From a virus: DNA of 57,741 bases. The position numbers and the translations under genes are program-made. Positions 35,856 to 52,405 of the stretch are shown piece after piece (position 1 is the stretch's first letter; each line of letters opens with the position of its first letter). The notes beneath the pieces are model-generated. The model saw nothing but the letters and a program-made list of their open reading frames with translations. It was not told the origin of the DNA and did not search any database. The stretch lies in the IMG/VR virus record IMGVR_UViG_3300042516_002128, positions 1-57,741 of that record, one strand, 5' to 3'.

Positions 35856-38288
35856 ATGAATAGTCAAAATATATTGAAATTTTGGGGTACACGCATGGAT
35901 TTGAAGATTGACTCTTCAGAATATCATGATTATGAGATATCTAAAACAGAATCGGATTATAATTCTGATGTGTTAGATTTTAACACCCCAATTAATTATT
36001 CGGGGTTAAGTGTAAACACCACGGGATTAACAAATGCGGATTGTGTTAGAAATACAATATCTTTAAATGAATTTGACAATACGGTTAATGACCCATCATA
36101 TCCATATTCGGCTTATACTTGGACATTATCATATAGTGCGTTTACCAACCAATTAAACAATTCTGATATTATTTTAAAAAATGATGTTTATGAATTTATT
36201 AATAGTAGTGGAGAAACTCATTATTTTATTGAAAATGGGTATAATAATTCACTATCAAATCCATTTTCTTTAAATGTTACAGGATTTACAACAGGTTCTA
36301 CTGTTGATTGCACTTTACAATTTTCAGGAACAGGAATAACAACAACCATTTGTTGTCCAAGAGACCCAATTCCATCAGCAAAACCGTGGGCGTATCAAAT
36401 TAACCATGGTGCTGGTGTTAATAATTGTGATTATTCAGTTAAAAGAAGGACAGAAAAAGGATGGACAATTGATTTTGTTTTAAATAAAGATTCTCTTCCA
36501 TGGTCTGACGGTAATGTCATATACTATCTTGGGGTTAGAAATGAATCTGATATAGTAGATTACGCAGATAATAACCTATCTTTCTCATTTACAGATGACG
36601 GTCGACTTAAATGGACATCAATTCGTTATTCGGGTATCTGTGATAGTTCTTCGGGGTATACAGAATCATTTTATATTTCGTCAGGACAAACATTACCATT
36701 ATGTAATAATGGAACAAGTAATGATTTTAATATTACAATAACATTTGATAGATACAGTAGATATACTGATTGTAATCTTGAAAATGATGGGGGTTGGAAT
36801 GATTTAATTCCAGGAGTAAAGGTTATTCCATATGTACCAGAATCTGGTAGTTCGGTAACATCAACCCAAACTACAATTTATACCGAAGTTGAAGAACTAA
36901 ATAAAAAATGGGCGTTTGAAAGAGAAAGACGACTTGGTATTTTAAAAATTTATTTAAACGGTAGACCAATATATAAATTAAAAGATTGGGAGGAAATAAT
37001 TCCATCTGATAGGGGTGAACAACCTTTTATACAATCATGGGGTTCAGGTACTCAATACGCCGGTGGTGTACACAATATGGGTACGTCTTGTTTTAATTTT
37101 AAACAAATACAATTTTATGAACAACCATTAGATTTTGTTAACGTCAGACATCATTATTTAACGGAAATAAAACCAAACTTTAATATTGTTGAATGTAATG
37201 AAGATTGTTATGAGGATGTTGTGGGTTTTACAGGTTGTGAAAAAAACTGTTATTATTGGAACGTCTTTATTAATCAAAATGATTTAAATTCCGCAACGGG
37301 AAATACGATAAATGATGATAATAGTGTTTATGTAGATAGAATTAATTGTCAATTAGACTCCGAAACAAAACAATATTCAACTTCAGGTTTAACTTATTGG
37401 AATGTATGTATGCCTAAATTGGCTGATTATGAATTTTACTATTATGTTAATGATGTAAAAACTTTAGTTACCGGTAATACAAGTAACATGACGATAACCT
37501 CAGATTGTTGTGATTTAGATAAAAAATATAAATTAACTGTCACGGGTGACTTACATCCAAACGCTTTAGGGTCTAGCGAAGCTGATTTATATGTGAATGG
37601 TGAATTAATTTTTCATTGGGATAAAGATATTTTTTGGGTAATTAATCCTGATGTTTGGGAATATGGTTTAAACAAAGGAGATAAAGTTTATCTCGATTTT
37701 AAACCCGATTTATGTGCACCCGAAGTTGGACAAAAAGACTTATACGTATATTCGGGACTAACAAATATTGATTCATATTCTTGGTACAGTCCATCATTAA
37801 GTTGTACAGGTAGTCCTATATTATCAGGTTACACAACTCCTGTTTATACTGTAAATGACGATTTATCAATCGAAATATATTGTCCGGCGTGTGTTCCGGT
37901 AACTCCCACTCCTACTCCTACACCAACTCCTACATCAAGTGGGGTAGCCGTAACTCCAAGTATAACACCAACTAGAACAATCACACCAACCAATACCCCA
38001 ACCAATACTCCAACACCATCAATAACACCAAGTACAGTTGTATCGTTTACATATTCATTATTAGGTGCAAACCCAAGTGCCAGTGCCACTGCATGTTTTA
38101 TTTACCCAGCTAGTGGGGTACCAAACGTTTATGGAGTAAAGGTATTTGGTAGTTTAGTAACTTCAGATATTTTATATTCAGATGTAAGTTTAACCACACC
38201 ACTAACAAATGGTTTTTATTATTCAAATGGTACAAATTGGGTTAAAATAAATAACTCAGGGGTAATAACTAGTACTGGAACTTGTTAA
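35856..38288 (+). CDS. Large tail fibre-like protein with Pro/Thr stalk
   Basis: 810 residues. It is beta-rich with scattered Cys pairs (NCDYSVKRRTEKGWTIDFVL near 190 and FTGCEKNCYYWNV near 465). A central part (RLGILKIYLNGRPIYKLKDW, GGVHNMGTSCFNFKQIQFYE) resembles LamG/concanavalin-like carbohydrate-binding folds. Residues about 682-728 are a Pro/Thr stalk (TPTPTPTPTPTSSGVAVTPS, then TPTNTPTNTPTP). The last 80 residues form a small domain with IYPASGVPNVYGVKVFGSLV. It probably contacts the host surface. The Pro/Thr DNA is shared with the genes at 38467 and 47249. Confidence 0.65.
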   Translation: MNSQNILKFWGTRMDLKIDSSEYHDYEISKTESDYNSDVLDFNTPINYSGLSVNTTGLTNADCVRNTISLNEFDNTVNDPSYPYSAYTWTLSYSAFTNQLNNSDIILKNDVYEFINSSGETHYFIENGYNNSLSNPFSLNVTGFTTGSTVDCTLQFSGTGITTTICCPRDPIPSAKPWAYQINHGAGVNNCDYSVKRRTEKGWTIDFVLNKDSLPWSDGNVIYYLGVRNESDIVDYADNNLSFSFTDDGRLKWTSIRYSGICDSSSGYTESFYISSGQTLPLCNNGTSNDFNITITFDRYSRYTDCNLENDGGWNDLIPGVKVIPYVPESGSSVTSTQTTIYTEVEELNKKWAFERERRLGILKIYLNGRPIYKLKDWEEIIPSDRGEQPFIQSWGSGTQYAGGVHNMGTSCFNFKQIQFYEQPLDFVNVRHHYLTEIKPNFNIVECNEDCYEDVVGFTGCEKNCYYWNVFINQNDLNSATGNTINDDNSVYVDRINCQLDSETKQYSTSGLTYWNVCMPKLADYEFYYYVNDVKTLVTGNTSNMTITSDCCDLDKKYKLTVTGDLHPNALGSSEADLYVNGELIFHWDKDIFWVINPDVWEYGLNKGDKVYLDFKPDLCAPEVGQKDLYVYSGLTNIDSYSWYSPSLSCTGSPILSGYTTPVYTVNDDLSIEIYCPACVPVTPTPTPTPTPTSSGVAVTPSITPTRTITPTNTPTNTPTPSITPSTVVSFTYSLLGANPSASATACFIYPASGVPNVYGVKVFGSLVTSDILYSDVSLTTPLTNGFYYSNGTNWVKINNSGVITSTGTC
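37899..38036 (+). repeat. Pro/Thr-coding repeat tract
   Basis: Low-complexity ACTCC/ACACCAAC repeats encode TPTPTPT-type residues within the fibre gene. Similar tracts at 38316, 38656 and 48355 can recombine with it. Confidence 0.8.
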
Positions 38289-38300
38289 AAAAAAACATAA

Positions 38301-38308
38301 TATTTATA
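38301..38308 (+). promoter_or_regulatory. Late-type element TATTTATA without an intact gene
   Basis: TAATATTTATAGTT lies 12 bases after the fibre stop and is followed only by the Pro/Thr remnant at 38310-38360, so it appears orphaned. Confidence 0.4.
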
Positions 38309-38309
38309 G

Positions 38310-38360
38310 TTAAACCAACAAGAACCATCACACCAACCTCAACACCAAGTACTTCGTAAA
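38310..38360 (+). pseudogene. Pro/Thr tract remnant of a lost fibre gene
   Basis: Between two fibre genes the frame starting GTTAAACCAACAAGAACC reads VKPTRTITPTSTPSTS and stops at TAA (38358-38360). It has no start codon but follows a TATTTATA element. It looks like the end of a fibre-type gene whose body was removed by recombination between Pro/Thr repeats. Confidence 0.45.
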
Positions 38361-48436: not shown

Positions 48437-48439
48437 AAA

Positions 48440-48616
48440 TTAATCTCCGTAGATATCTTTTTTCTTTGGTATTTCAATGGATTTATCTTCTTTACAAGTT
48501 TCATCAATCCACTTCTGAACAATTTTATAAATTTTTAATCCTTTTTTATCGCAATATTCTTTTAACATCTTGTGATGTTTCTCACTAACCTTGATGTTTT
48601 TGGTGGTATTTTCCAT
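48440..48616 (-). CDS. Small ribbon-helix-helix-like protein
   Basis: 58 residues from the ATG at 48616; the longer frame to 48637 lacks a convincing start. It reads TTKNIKVSEKHHKMLKEYCD, KKGLKIYKIVQKWIDETCKE: a strand followed by two helices, as in MetJ/Arc DNA-binding proteins that bind operators as dimers. It is the only obvious small DNA-binding regulator in the right half of the window. It converges on the gp15-like gene and has a TATTTATC element six bases upstream, so it is probably expressed late. Confidence 0.6.
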   Translation of the reverse strand: MENTTKNIKVSEKHHKMLKEYCDKKGLKIYKIVQKWIDETCKEDKSIEIPKKKDIYGD

Positions 48617-48622
48617 GATAAA

Positions 48623-48630
48623 GATAAATA
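48623..48630 (-). promoter_or_regulatory. Putative late promoter element TATTTATC
   Basis: Minus strand CAATATTTATCTTTATC then ATG at 48616, six bases downstream. Confidence 0.45.
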
Positions 48631-48707
48631 TTGACACTAAAAGATAAATTAGTGTCTATAAGTATATTTTTTCAAAAAATCAAGTAAATCTTTGCTAAAA
48701 ACAAAGA

Positions 48708-48715
48708 TATTTATA
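48708..48715 (+). promoter_or_regulatory. Putative late promoter element TATTTATA
   Basis: GATATTTATAGAAAAG, 37 bases before the sheath ATG at 48753; the leader between is A-rich, ending CAAGAAAAAA. Confidence 0.55.
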
Positions 48716-48752
48716 GAAAAGTAATAAAATAAATTAACCAAACAAGAAAAAA

Positions 48753-51596
48753 ATGGCAAATTCAAATAGAGTATTTGTGTCTCCAGGTGTGTACACATCG
48801 GAAAAAGATTTATCATTCGTAGCACAAAGTGTTGGGGTGAGTACATTGGGGTTAGTGGGTGAAACTTTAAGAGGTCCCGCTTTCGAACCAATTTTAATAA
48901 CAGATTTCGATGCGTTCAAATTATATTTTGGAGGTACATCACCTGAAAAAGATGGTAATAACAATCCAAAATATGAACTACCTTATGTTGCAAAAGCATA
49001 CCTTCAAGAATCTAATCAATTATTCGTAACAAGAATTCTTGGTTTAACAGGATATAAACCAGTTAAAACATTCGCGATTCAAACAATCGGTGGTGTTGAG
49101 GTTGGTTCATTAAGTGGAACCACATCAGGAACAACAATTCCATCAACAACAGGTATTACAGGTAGTACTTTCTACACTTTCTTATCAGATAAGAAAGCTT
49201 ATGATGGTAACACAATTACTGACTACATTGTTACAAACTTTAGTGGTAACACTTCAAGTAATAATAACGATTGGTTTGTTTTGGGTAATGTACCGTTTTC
49301 AGGAACATCAGGTTTAACTGGTACTGAGGTTATCTCACCATTGACAGGTTTGGACAATGCAAATAATTACAACTCAAAAGAGTGGTACAATACATTAGTT
49401 AATACGGCGGGTGATGAAGTTTACTCATACCTATTCGTTTATAATAGTGGAACAAGTAGATTCAATGTTACAGAATACACATATAATGCAACTACATATA
49501 GTGATTATGATGGTCAAGTTGTTGTTGCTTTCAGGTCAAGAGGTTCATACGCTGGTCAAACTTTAAATTTGGAAGTTACTGCGAACTCTAACTTTAATAT
49601 TTCTGGTTCAGATTTAGTGGTTAATCCATTAGCTGAATTTACACTTAATGTAACAGGTTCAACAAGTGGAGCTAAAACATTTACTTGTAGTTTAGATACG
49701 TCATCATCAAAATATGTTACAAAAGTTTTAGGTAATAGTGTGTATGATAAATCAAAAACTGATATTCCGATTTATGTTTATGAATCTTACCCAAATTATT
49801 TATTAAAAGCGTTTCAACAAGGTTATATTAGAGGTATCAGTTTAACTGAGGTATATAATACAGAAAACAATAACTTCTTAACAGAATGGGATACTCCAAT
49901 GTCACCGACTGTTGTTTCTGAAGTTAGAGGTGGTAACGTTGCAGATTTATTTGAAGTAATTACAATTTCTGACGGTGAGGGTGCTAACACACAACTTAAA
50001 ATTATGGTCATGAACATTGATATTGATACATATGAATTTGACCTTTTAGTTCGTGAATACTACGATACTGATGACAATATGGTTGTTCTTGAGAAATTTA
50101 CAAGATGTTCAATGAATCCGGATGTTCCGGGTTATATCGCTAAGAAAGTTGGTACATCAGATGGTGAATATGAATTGAATTCAAAATACATCATGTTGAA
50201 TATGGCTAGTAATCACCCAACAGATGCTTACCCTTCAGGATTCAAAGGTTTTGTGAATAACTCAAACTTTGGTGGTAGTACTGTAGGTTCTGTTATGTAC
50301 AAAACGGAGTACTATATTGCTGGTGATGTAACGGGATACAATTCTGATGGTTCACCAATTACAACTTCAGGTGACACAATTAGAAAAGTATGTTTAGGTT
50401 TCTCAACTCAATCAGGTTATGATGATGATTTGTTAAAATACAAAGGTAAGGCGGCAACAGATACAACTAAAGGTTTCCACTTATCAACAAACGCATCAAC
50501 AATTACAGGTACAACATATCTAACAACACCATACGATTTAGAAGGACAAACAGGAGCAGATAATTTCTTAACAAATATCAACAACCGTAAATTTACATTA
50601 GCATTATGTGGTGGATTTGATGGTTGGGATATCTATAGAAATGTAAGAACCTATGGAGATAGTTATATCTTCGGTAAGAAAACTTATGTTTCAGGTAACA
50701 CAGCTAATGGTGGTGTGTTCAGTACAGTAGCAACAAGTCCAAACTCTGACTACTATTCATACATTAAAGGTATTGATACTTTTGGTAACCCTGAAGCTGT
50801 TGATATCAACATATTCGCAACACCGGGTATTAATTTCTATGACCATAGTTCATTAACTTCTTACGCAATTGATATGGTTGAACAAGATAGAGCGGATTCA
50901 CTTTATGTAATTGGTTCACCAAACTACAGTACAGTTGATGAGGTGGTTGGAGCTTTAGATGGTGTGGCAATGGATACAAACTATTCGGCTACTTACTTCC
51001 CTTGGATTCAAATTAGAGATGTGGATAACGCAACTCAACTTTACATTCCACCAACAGGTGAGGTAGTAAGAAATATAGCGTTAACAGATAACGTATCATT
51101 CCCATGGTTCGCAGTCGCTGGTTATTCAAGAGGTTTGGTTAATTCAATTAAAGCAGTTAAGAAATTAACACTTGATGAAAGAGATGAACTTTATAAAAAC
51201 AGAATTAACCCAATTGCAACATTCTCTGATACTGGTACAATTATTTGGGGTAACAAAACACTTCAAGTAAGAGAATCAGCACTTGATAGAATTAACGTAA
51301 GAAGATTGTTATTAAGAGCAAGAAAATTAATTTCAGCAGTTGCAGTTAGATTGATATTTGAACAAAATGACGAACAAGTTCGTAATGAGTTCTTGAGATT
51401 AGTAAATCCAATATTAGACGCAATTAAGAGAGAAAGAGGATTATTTGATTTCCGTGTAACGGTTTCTAGTGACCCAGCTGATATAGATGCAAATACATTG
51501 AGAGGTAAAATCTTTATTAAACCTACTCGTTCACTTGAATTTATTGATGTTGAATTCATTATTACACCAACAGGGGCTTCGTTTGATAATATTTAA
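48753..51596 (+). CDS. 18: Tail sheath protein (T4 gp18-like)
   Basis: 947 residues, longer than T4 gp18 (659). The N-terminus VFVSPGVYTSEKDLSFVAQS and the C-terminal core (LQVRESALDRINVRRLLLRA, RLVNPILDAIKRERGLFDFR, TLRGKIFIKPTRSLEFIDVE) are typical of contractile sheath proteins. The extra length is in beta-rich, Ser/Thr/Gly-rich inserted domains (about 130-480), probably exposed on the tail surface. The sheath contracts to drive the tube through the cell envelope. The A-rich leader and C-ending codons fit high expression. Confidence 0.95.
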   Translation: MANSNRVFVSPGVYTSEKDLSFVAQSVGVSTLGLVGETLRGPAFEPILITDFDAFKLYFGGTSPEKDGNNNPKYELPYVAKAYLQESNQLFVTRILGLTGYKPVKTFAIQTIGGVEVGSLSGTTSGTTIPSTTGITGSTFYTFLSDKKAYDGNTITDYIVTNFSGNTSSNNNDWFVLGNVPFSGTSGLTGTEVISPLTGLDNANNYNSKEWYNTLVNTAGDEVYSYLFVYNSGTSRFNVTEYTYNATTYSDYDGQVVVAFRSRGSYAGQTLNLEVTANSNFNISGSDLVVNPLAEFTLNVTGSTSGAKTFTCSLDTSSSKYVTKVLGNSVYDKSKTDIPIYVYESYPNYLLKAFQQGYIRGISLTEVYNTENNNFLTEWDTPMSPTVVSEVRGGNVADLFEVITISDGEGANTQLKIMVMNIDIDTYEFDLLVREYYDTDDNMVVLEKFTRCSMNPDVPGYIAKKVGTSDGEYELNSKYIMLNMASNHPTDAYPSGFKGFVNNSNFGGSTVGSVMYKTEYYIAGDVTGYNSDGSPITTSGDTIRKVCLGFSTQSGYDDDLLKYKGKAATDTTKGFHLSTNASTITGTTYLTTPYDLEGQTGADNFLTNINNRKFTLALCGGFDGWDIYRNVRTYGDSYIFGKKTYVSGNTANGGVFSTVATSPNSDYYSYIKGIDTFGNPEAVDINIFATPGINFYDHSSLTSYAIDMVEQDRADSLYVIGSPNYSTVDEVVGALDGVAMDTNYSATYFPWIQIRDVDNATQLYIPPTGEVVRNIALTDNVSFPWFAVAGYSRGLVNSIKAVKKLTLDERDELYKNRINPIATFSDTGTIIWGNKTLQVRESALDRINVRRLLLRARKLISAVAVRLIFEQNDEQVRNEFLRLVNPILDAIKRERGLFDFRVTVSSDPADIDANTLRGKIFIKPTRSLEFIDVEFIITPTGASFDNI

Positions 51597-51612
51597 TAAA
51601 ATAAAATAAAAA

Positions 51613-51634
51613 GGGAAGGTGTAAAAACCTTCCC
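51613..51634 (+). terminator. Terminator-like hairpin after sheath gene
   Basis: GGGAAGG(T) / (A)CCTTCCC stem with an A-rich loop, 16 bases after the sheath stop. No T-run follows, so it may stabilise the 3' end rather than terminate strictly. Confidence 0.55.
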
Positions 51635-51690
51635 AACTTATATGTTCCACAAGAAACAAAAAAAGTATAAAAAAAATAAAATTATATTAC

Positions 51691-51803
51691 CCAGTATTTA
51701 TGCTCCAGTATACTAGAACTAGTATTTTATTATCTAGTAATCTTTTAACTAGTTTTAATAATCTAGTTAATTTATTTCTAGTACTGGATACTAGTATAGG
51801 AAA
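51691..51803 (+). repeat. Iteron-like array, eight direct repeats of 13-15 bases
   Basis: Units begin at 51691, 51705, 51719, 51734, 51749, 51763, 51778 and 51791. Each starts with C(C/T)AGT: two CCAGTAT, then CTAGTAT, CTAGTAA, CTAGTTT, CTAGTTA, CTAGTAC, CTAGTAT, followed by A/T-rich spacers. Successive spacing is 14, 14, 15, 15, 14, 15 and 13 bases. Another CTAG lies at 51713. The tetranucleotide is palindromic, so each unit can bind a dimer. Possible roles are an origin, an operator array or a packaging site. Confidence 0.8.
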
Positions 51804-51868
51804 AAATACGAAATTTTTTTGACATAATCAAGTATTTCGTAAAAAAAAATTATTTTTCAATAGTTGTA

Positions 51869-51876
51869 TATTTATA
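51869..51876 (+). promoter_or_regulatory. Putative late promoter element TATTTATA
   Basis: GTATATTTATAGGTAAGG, 40 bases before the tube ATG at 51917, downstream of the direct-repeat array. Confidence 0.5.
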
Positions 51877-51916
51877 GGTAAGGTAAATAAAAAAAAATTA
51901 AAAACAAAATATAGAC

Positions 51917-52405
51917 ATGGCAGATTTATTAATGAAAATGCCGGTTCCATACGAACCGAAAAGAGTTAACCGTTTCATACTTAGATTCCCTTCTTCATTG
52001 GGTATCAACGAATGGTATGTGGCATCAACGGCTAGACCAAGTGCAAAAATCAATTCAGTAGCAATACCATTCATCAATACATCAACTTATGTTGCTGGTA
52101 GATTCGAATGGAATGAACTAAGAGTAACATTTAAAGACCCAATTGGACCTTCAGCGTCACAAGCGTTGATGGAATGGTTCCGTTTACATGCGGAGTCTGT
52201 AACAGGTCGTATGGGTTACGCTGCTGGTTATAAGAAAGACATTGAATTGGAAATGTTAGACCCAACGGGTGTTGTTGTTGAGAAATGGATTCTTCAAGGT
52301 ACATTCTTAACTGACTTGAACTTCAACGAACTTGATTATTCAAGAGATGATATTGCAACTATCACAGCGTCTTTACGTATGGATAGATGTATTCAAGTTT
52401 ACTAA
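51917..52405 (+). CDS. 19: Tail tube protein (T4 gp19-like)
   Basis: 162 residues, matching the 163 of T4 gp19. Features include PYEPKRVNRFILRFPSSLGI, EWYVASTARPSAKINSVAIP, RFEWNELRVTFKDPIGPSAS, QALMEWFRLHAESVTGRMGY and YSRDDIATITASLRMDRC. It forms the hexameric rings of the inner tube. The A-rich leader and C-rich codons resemble the sheath gene. It stands between the repeat array and a perfect palindrome hairpin. Confidence 0.95.
   Translation: MADLLMKMPVPYEPKRVNRFILRFPSSLGINEWYVASTARPSAKINSVAIPFINTSTYVAGRFEWNELRVTFKDPIGPSASQALMEWFRLHAESVTGRMGYAAGYKKDIELEMLDPTGVVVEKWILQGTFLTDLNFNELDYSRDDIATITASLRMDRCIQVY

Follow-up and report, generated by a model that had tools for sequence, protein, structure and literature searches.

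Noncoding RNAs of virulent Bacteroidota phages are little known. In phage K (Kayvirus), the intergenic noncoding RNA lnc001 has been reported on the minus strand with an early promoter of its own (PMC9241854), and in Bacteroides the small RNA FopS is driven by sigmaABfr and its sequence has been reported in a Caudovirales phage (PMC11697453). In this study, we propose that a short repeat array lying between the tail sheath and tail tube genes of a large T4-like phage of Bacteroidota probably belongs to a small noncoding RNA gene on the minus strand, forming the 5' part of its transcript. As with lnc001, a large virulent myovirus would thus carry a minus-strand intergenic RNA with its own promoter, but lnc001 was found by RNA-seq and the RNA proposed here is predicted from sequence alone; lnc001 is also longer (635 nt), lies near tRNA genes and belongs to a phage with a Gram-positive host, and the accessible part of its description reports no CYRG array (PMC9241854). 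Like FopS and GibS of Bacteroides, the array RNA, which is predicted only, would be short, start at a Bacteroidota-type promoter and end at an intrinsic terminator; FopS and GibS, however, are 65-70 nt long with a conserved seed and many copies in the host, whereas the array locus has a constant promoter and a variable body (PMC11697453). In the open-access papers searched, we found neither a phage small RNA in the Bacteroidota group nor a noncoding RNA at this tail locus described.

The tail locus and its repeat array

The window, that is, the whole stretch of DNA analysed, is a 57,741-bp virus record. It is AT-rich, carries T4-type tail genes and a T4-baseplate-like gene, has genes for a B-family DNA polymerase and an SNF2-type helicase close by, and belongs to a large T4-like phage of Bacteroidota; host assignment by binned contig gave no match. 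The features of the locus are collected in Table 1. The array had been placed in the longest non-coding gap of the window, and this is correct for the gaps between large ORFs (51597-51916, 320 bp), but only just, as the same ORF list has another gap of 316 bp (48437-48752), which in fact contains a 58-codon gene.

Table 1. Features of the array locus, with positions in the window
Feature	Position	Strand	Basis or remark
Ribbon-helix-helix (RHH) protein of 58 codons, before the sheath gene	48440..48616	-	weak hits to ParG, RepB-RCR_reg and Omega; phrog_876 repressor, E 4e-4
Tail sheath gene, left neighbour of the array	48753..51596	+	phrog_23, E 8.9e-56
Predicted noncoding RNA, ~193 nt (~190)	51603..51795	-	longest ORF 4 codons
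Predicted intrinsic terminator: stem GGGAAGGT/ACCTTCCC (51634-51613), then UUUUUAUUUU (51612-51603)	51603..51634	-	beside the sheath stop
Degenerate palindrome GTTCCACAAGAAAC, parS-like GTTYCACGTGRAAC in relatives; 3' part of the predicted RNA	51644..51657	.	comparison with relatives
CYRG (CTAG/CCAG/CTGG) repeat array; makes up most of the predicted minus-strand RNA's 5' half	51691..51803	.	counts and shuffles; kind, not spacing, kept in relatives
Predicted transcription start at the array's right edge, 12 nt past the T of the -7 TA	51795..51796	-	inferred from sequence
-7 element TATTTTTT, TAnnTTTG-like, 20 nt from TTG	51801..51808	-	comparison; consensus and placement from PMC9723704
-33 element TTG (wider TTGATTATGTCAA; imperfect dyad TTGAC-N3-GTCAA)	51829..51831	-	TTG-N20-TAnnTTT in 112/113
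Late-type box TATTTATA, predicted promoter of the tail tube gene; lies downstream of the array	51869..51876	+	TATTTAT[AT] conservation
Tail tube gene, right neighbour of the array	51917..52405	+	phrog_4542, E 3.8e-23

Eight CYAGT units start at 51691, 51705, 51719, 51734, 51749, 51763, 51778 and 51791, which reproduces the number, place and spacings (14, 14, 15, 15, 14, 15, 13) given in the original prediction. When the 320-bp gap was shuffled 20,000 times, chains of CYAGT at 13-15 bp had at most 2 members and the CYAGT count was at most 3, against 8 observed in both cases. CTAG was said to be scarce and nevertheless present seven times in 82 bases, and both points were borne out: the window has 46 copies against 94 expected from dinucleotide shuffles, seven of them at 51713-51794. 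The C(C/T)AGTA start described as conserved holds for CYAGT in all eight units, but the sixth base is A in only six of them, the units at 51749 and 51763 reading CTAGTT. While the array is real, it does not consist of clean direct repeats: reverse-facing units lie inside it (51711-51716, 51782-51787 and 51789-51794) and one of the seven CTAG copies, at 51713, is out of register, thus we describe it as a mixed-orientation CYRG array.

Searches of IMG/VR with the tube protein gave about 240 loci with a recognisable tube start, and the comparison set was formed by 113 distinct sheath-to-tube intergenic regions cut from IMG/VR loci, which are strongly related to each other, so that the counts below are not counts of independent events. 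An array of like kind recurs in most of the 113 regions, frequently flanked by CCCAGTA and TACTGGG. The original prediction had named absence from close relatives with intact synteny as a refutation, and this check came out in favour of the element; the prediction was right to see a functional-looking non-coding element here. The number, spacing and orientation of units and the length of the array differ between clades, and its presence varies too across the 113 regions: only in the window's clade is a spacing of 14-15 bp typical, and among other lineages there are some with TTAGTA repeats, some with GGWCC added and some without recognisable repeats. On the tube-protein tree, array presence changes at least six to seven times, with the bootstrap not settled. 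In each of two whole records (288 kb, and a circular one of 310 kb), the array is the only CTAG cluster. The array DNA had no match in a phage collection, no named isolate with the cassette was found, and in the named phages Mel-JY01, immuto and RM378 sheath and tube are merely 94, 45 and 98 bp apart, respectively.

Where genes appear to be inserted in the gap (L071, L072, L074 and L279), the array keeps its place beside the tube gene and is separated from the sheath gene. The distances between sheath and array in these loci and in L069 are 935-2,238 bp, apparently owing to inserted genes, and the array stays beside the tube gene in all five. Longer gaps were also seen in L047, L065, L162 and L186, with a second late-type box and GGACC/GGTCC units mixed into the array; in L047, L065 and L186 the second late-type box is preceded by a second promoter-like box. 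The 310-kb record (G003) has a 99-bp direct repeat at its two ends (start of L097 and end of L112), thus it is probably a complete circular assembly.

A predicted minus-strand promoter and its putative RNA

The constant element adjoining the array in all clades is TTGAYTTTGTCAAWTWWTTTTCGTAGTTTTTT on the minus strand. TTG-N20-TAnnTTT is present on this strand in 112 of the 113 intergenic regions with a spacer of exactly 20 nt, against 1 to 9 regions for the controls with other spacers (about 6), shuffles (about 6) and the plus strand (1). Columns outside this pattern are conserved as well, namely T at two spacer positions (103/104 and 102/104 rows) and TT before the -7 box (98-103/104), and about 85% of these 104 rows have a purine at the predicted +1. 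The dyad at the -33 element is symmetric at 4-5 of its 5 pairs in 70 of 112 regions. L069, the gap of which holds an insertion, was the sole region to fail a first, wider promoter search. A promoter-core DNA pattern, used independently of any protein, had matches in at least 119 contigs; 80 of the matches were examined, of which 79 are followed by a tube gene and the remaining one is truncated. Seven of these 79 tube genes were recognised by eye, their start being MPTPY instead of MPVPY.

TAnnTTTG at -12 to -5 is the main promoter element of Flavobacterium psychrophilum (PMC9723704), and 'TTTG' near -33 has been described in Bacteroides promoters (PMC7366714). The putative promoter beside the array is a close match to this main promoter of Bacteroidota, of the type read by the main sigma factor of the host: it has TTG at about -33 and a spacer within the range near 19-21 nt expected for sigmaA/sigmaABfr, a spacing class shared by the promoters of other genes. 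In two whole relatives, the full TTG-N19-21-TAnnTTTG occurs upstream of genes 29 and 19 times in sense and 2 times in antisense, compared with 0.4 and 0.8 in shuffles, and a Shine-Dalgarno-like motif was found for just 3 of 140 and 3 of 184 genes; enrichment of the promoter class together with near absence of Shine-Dalgarno motifs fits a Bacteroidota host. In G001 (L082-L096) and G003 (L097-L112), promoters of this class are clustered, often with an ATG 14-21 nt past +1, and are probably early; a second class, TATTTATA[AG], stands upstream of other genes and is probably late, again with no Shine-Dalgarno motif.

Most other promoters of the TTG-N19-21-TAnnTTTG class have an ORF within tens of bases, whereas the one beside the array is an orphan, the next minus-strand ORF of at least 30 codons being 3,180 nt away in the window and about 3.2 kb away in both relatives also. 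The last base of its -7 element is T, not G, in most rows (TAnnTTT itself being present in 112/113), and this ending in TTTT rather than the TTTG of most other promoters here means that it may be weak, regulated or middle-type. Judged by its sequence, the locus would have what a noncoding gene needs, that is, its own promoter, its own terminator and, in the window transcript, no ORF of more than 4 codons. A terminator scan of the window called a hairpin on the minus strand only, the U-run being on the minus side, and a crude script found an A-rich flank on the side of the minus terminator in 74 of the 113 relatives. Several lineages without repeats still have the promoter and the terminator, thus the repeats would not be indispensable if the RNA works, and its body may be free to change. 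No Rfam family matched the array RNA above the gathering threshold.

A structured RNA had been among the possibilities originally listed, with the tube leader as its place. While an RNA is also what we favour, strand and side appear to be wrong in that version: the conserved promoter reads away from the tube gene through the array, and the tube gene has a late-type box of its own downstream of the array, TATTTAT[AT] lying at most 90 nt from the tube ATG in 112 of the 113 regions. The box TATTTATA[AG] is found upstream of genes 15-16 times, with about 2 expected. Given this position of the late-type box, the predicted minus-strand RNA overlaps neither the coding sequences of the neighbours nor the predicted tube transcript. 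The plus strand folds no worse than the minus strand, and in some clades a TATTTAT box lies inside the array, which makes longer leaders conceivable; yet with the conserved late-type box downstream, no plus-strand early-type promoter before the array and little covariation, a plus-strand leader structure seems very improbable. Elsewhere in the window (38260-38310), CTAGTACTGGAACTTGTTAAAAAA followed by ATATTTATAG at the end of a gene resembles the right end of the array together with a late-type box.

Folding beats shuffles on both strands (mean z -1.4 on the minus and -1.8 on the plus strand), which says little about the strand used. The consensus folds have 5, 7 and 14 pairs with one double change. 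Covariation, which had been suggested as a check, was slight and not specific to either strand, and a conserved RNA structure was rejected. In clades A-D, pairing between the first 18 nt of the predicted RNA and the distal array exceeds that of shuffles (mean z -2.6 to -6.4), as CUAGUA/UACUGG in the window and CCCAGUA/UACUGGG in other clades, and the complementary strand does likewise. One pair in the stem of the window's clade is U.G, where the opposite strand would have A.C, and one clade shows a compensatory change from A-U to G-C in the 5'-distal stem; in lineage L276, the plus strand pairs better. Taken together, the pairing data would weakly favour a minus-strand RNA.

A possible role of the RNA

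For the minus-strand RNA gene, we propose that the host RNA polymerase makes an RNA of about 190 nt, probably early in infection, as promoters of the same class head the other early-type genes of the phage. Since the predicted RNA does not overlap its neighbours, it may act in trans, either through base-pairing or through a protein held on repeated AU-flanked CYRG units; with its many short units, the RNA could offer several sites for pairing or for protein binding. Pairing of its 5' end with the distal array could protect the RNA. The body putatively changes fast as units are gained, lost and inverted, the promoter and the terminator staying put. A bolder idea, which we regard as rather unlikely, is a new family of early phage RNAs with a fixed promoter and terminator, in which fast-changing self-complementary tetramers (CTAG, CCAG, CTGG and CCGG, in some clades GGWCC or TTAGTA) on AU-rich linkers form a multivalent decoy for a host RNA-binding protein or a host RNA, the changes being driven by an arms race between phage and host. 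Should the transcript prove real, a comparative set of hundreds of contigs is at hand; a simple promoter-core pattern suffices to find the locus.

Readings at the DNA level

A binding site for a phage or host protein has also been considered. The palindrome in the 3' part of the predicted RNA has 0-3 mismatches of 16 in most clades and is absent in others, its arms being kept and its centre variable (ACGT, ACGA, ACGC, ACAA, ACAT, ACGG or GTGT). It recalls bacterial parS, as GTTCCACGTGGAAC is exact in several relatives and, in most large records checked, present once at the locus; in several large records the exact form is usually the sole close match. Unlike parS, however, the palindrome has no constant centre and is missing in several clades, and the phage has no ParB: ParB_N (PF02195) was absent in 12 large records, with the control genomes positive. 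The parS reading of GTTCCACGTGGAAC was rejected on these grounds, and a literature search for host ParB with phage parS found nothing. Variants of the palindrome arms fit plus-strand and minus-strand pairing about equally, thus they carry no signal on the RNA strand.

An operator or nucleoprotein array, as originally suggested, would have a phage or host DNA-binding protein cover the CYRG units and control two divergent promoters, the early-type one on the minus strand and the late one of the tube gene on the plus strand. Palindromic tetramers in both orientations would suit recognition of double-stranded DNA, the array lies between the divergent promoters, and a conserved RHH protein gene flanks the sheath gene. 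This protein, conserved in 105 fetched loci, was beforehand the best candidate for an array binder. It is, however, equally present where the array is missing, and the repeats upstream of its own gene, judged by eye, are TATC/GATA, not CYRG, thus it was rejected as array binder; it looks like an autoregulated phage repressor. With ParB_N absent from the 12 records and no other binder found, we consider the operator reading to have little chance. For a packaging or recombination site at the array, no direct evidence was found.

An origin of replication with iterons had been listed among the possible functions. Several short repeats with near-regular spacing at an AT-rich, single-copy locus do resemble iteron-type origins, but neither the unit nor its spacing and number is conserved, the repeats are dispensable between lineages and missing in several, no initiator gene is adjacent, and no change was seen at the locus in skew, which follows gene direction; the iteron origin was thus rejected. 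A transcription-activated origin is a broader alternative, in which the minus-strand promoter would open the AT-rich region and an initiator would bind to the CYRG array; T4-type origins likewise combine a promoter with an unwinding element. It would accommodate the single copy in two whole records, the fixed position, the promoter without an ORF, and short palindromic units plus a larger palindrome. However, beyond the unconserved array, other stretches are equally or more AT-rich, no change of fourfold-site skew was seen at the locus in two genomes, where skew follows gene direction, and the locus lies among late tail genes with a strong terminator that would end the transcript after about 190 nt, and we therefore hold such an origin to be improbable. 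A literature search for CTAG with jumbo-phage origins found nothing. A repeat array should not be called an origin on the strength of one genome, as here comparison shifted the conserved signal from the repeats to the adjoining promoter.

As a separate observation on skew, a single ORF of 5,472 codons starts just after 107,915 in G001 (L087, about 108,000-124,000), and the stretch with this ORF has a very strong C-over-G skew (-3,219 in 10 kb).
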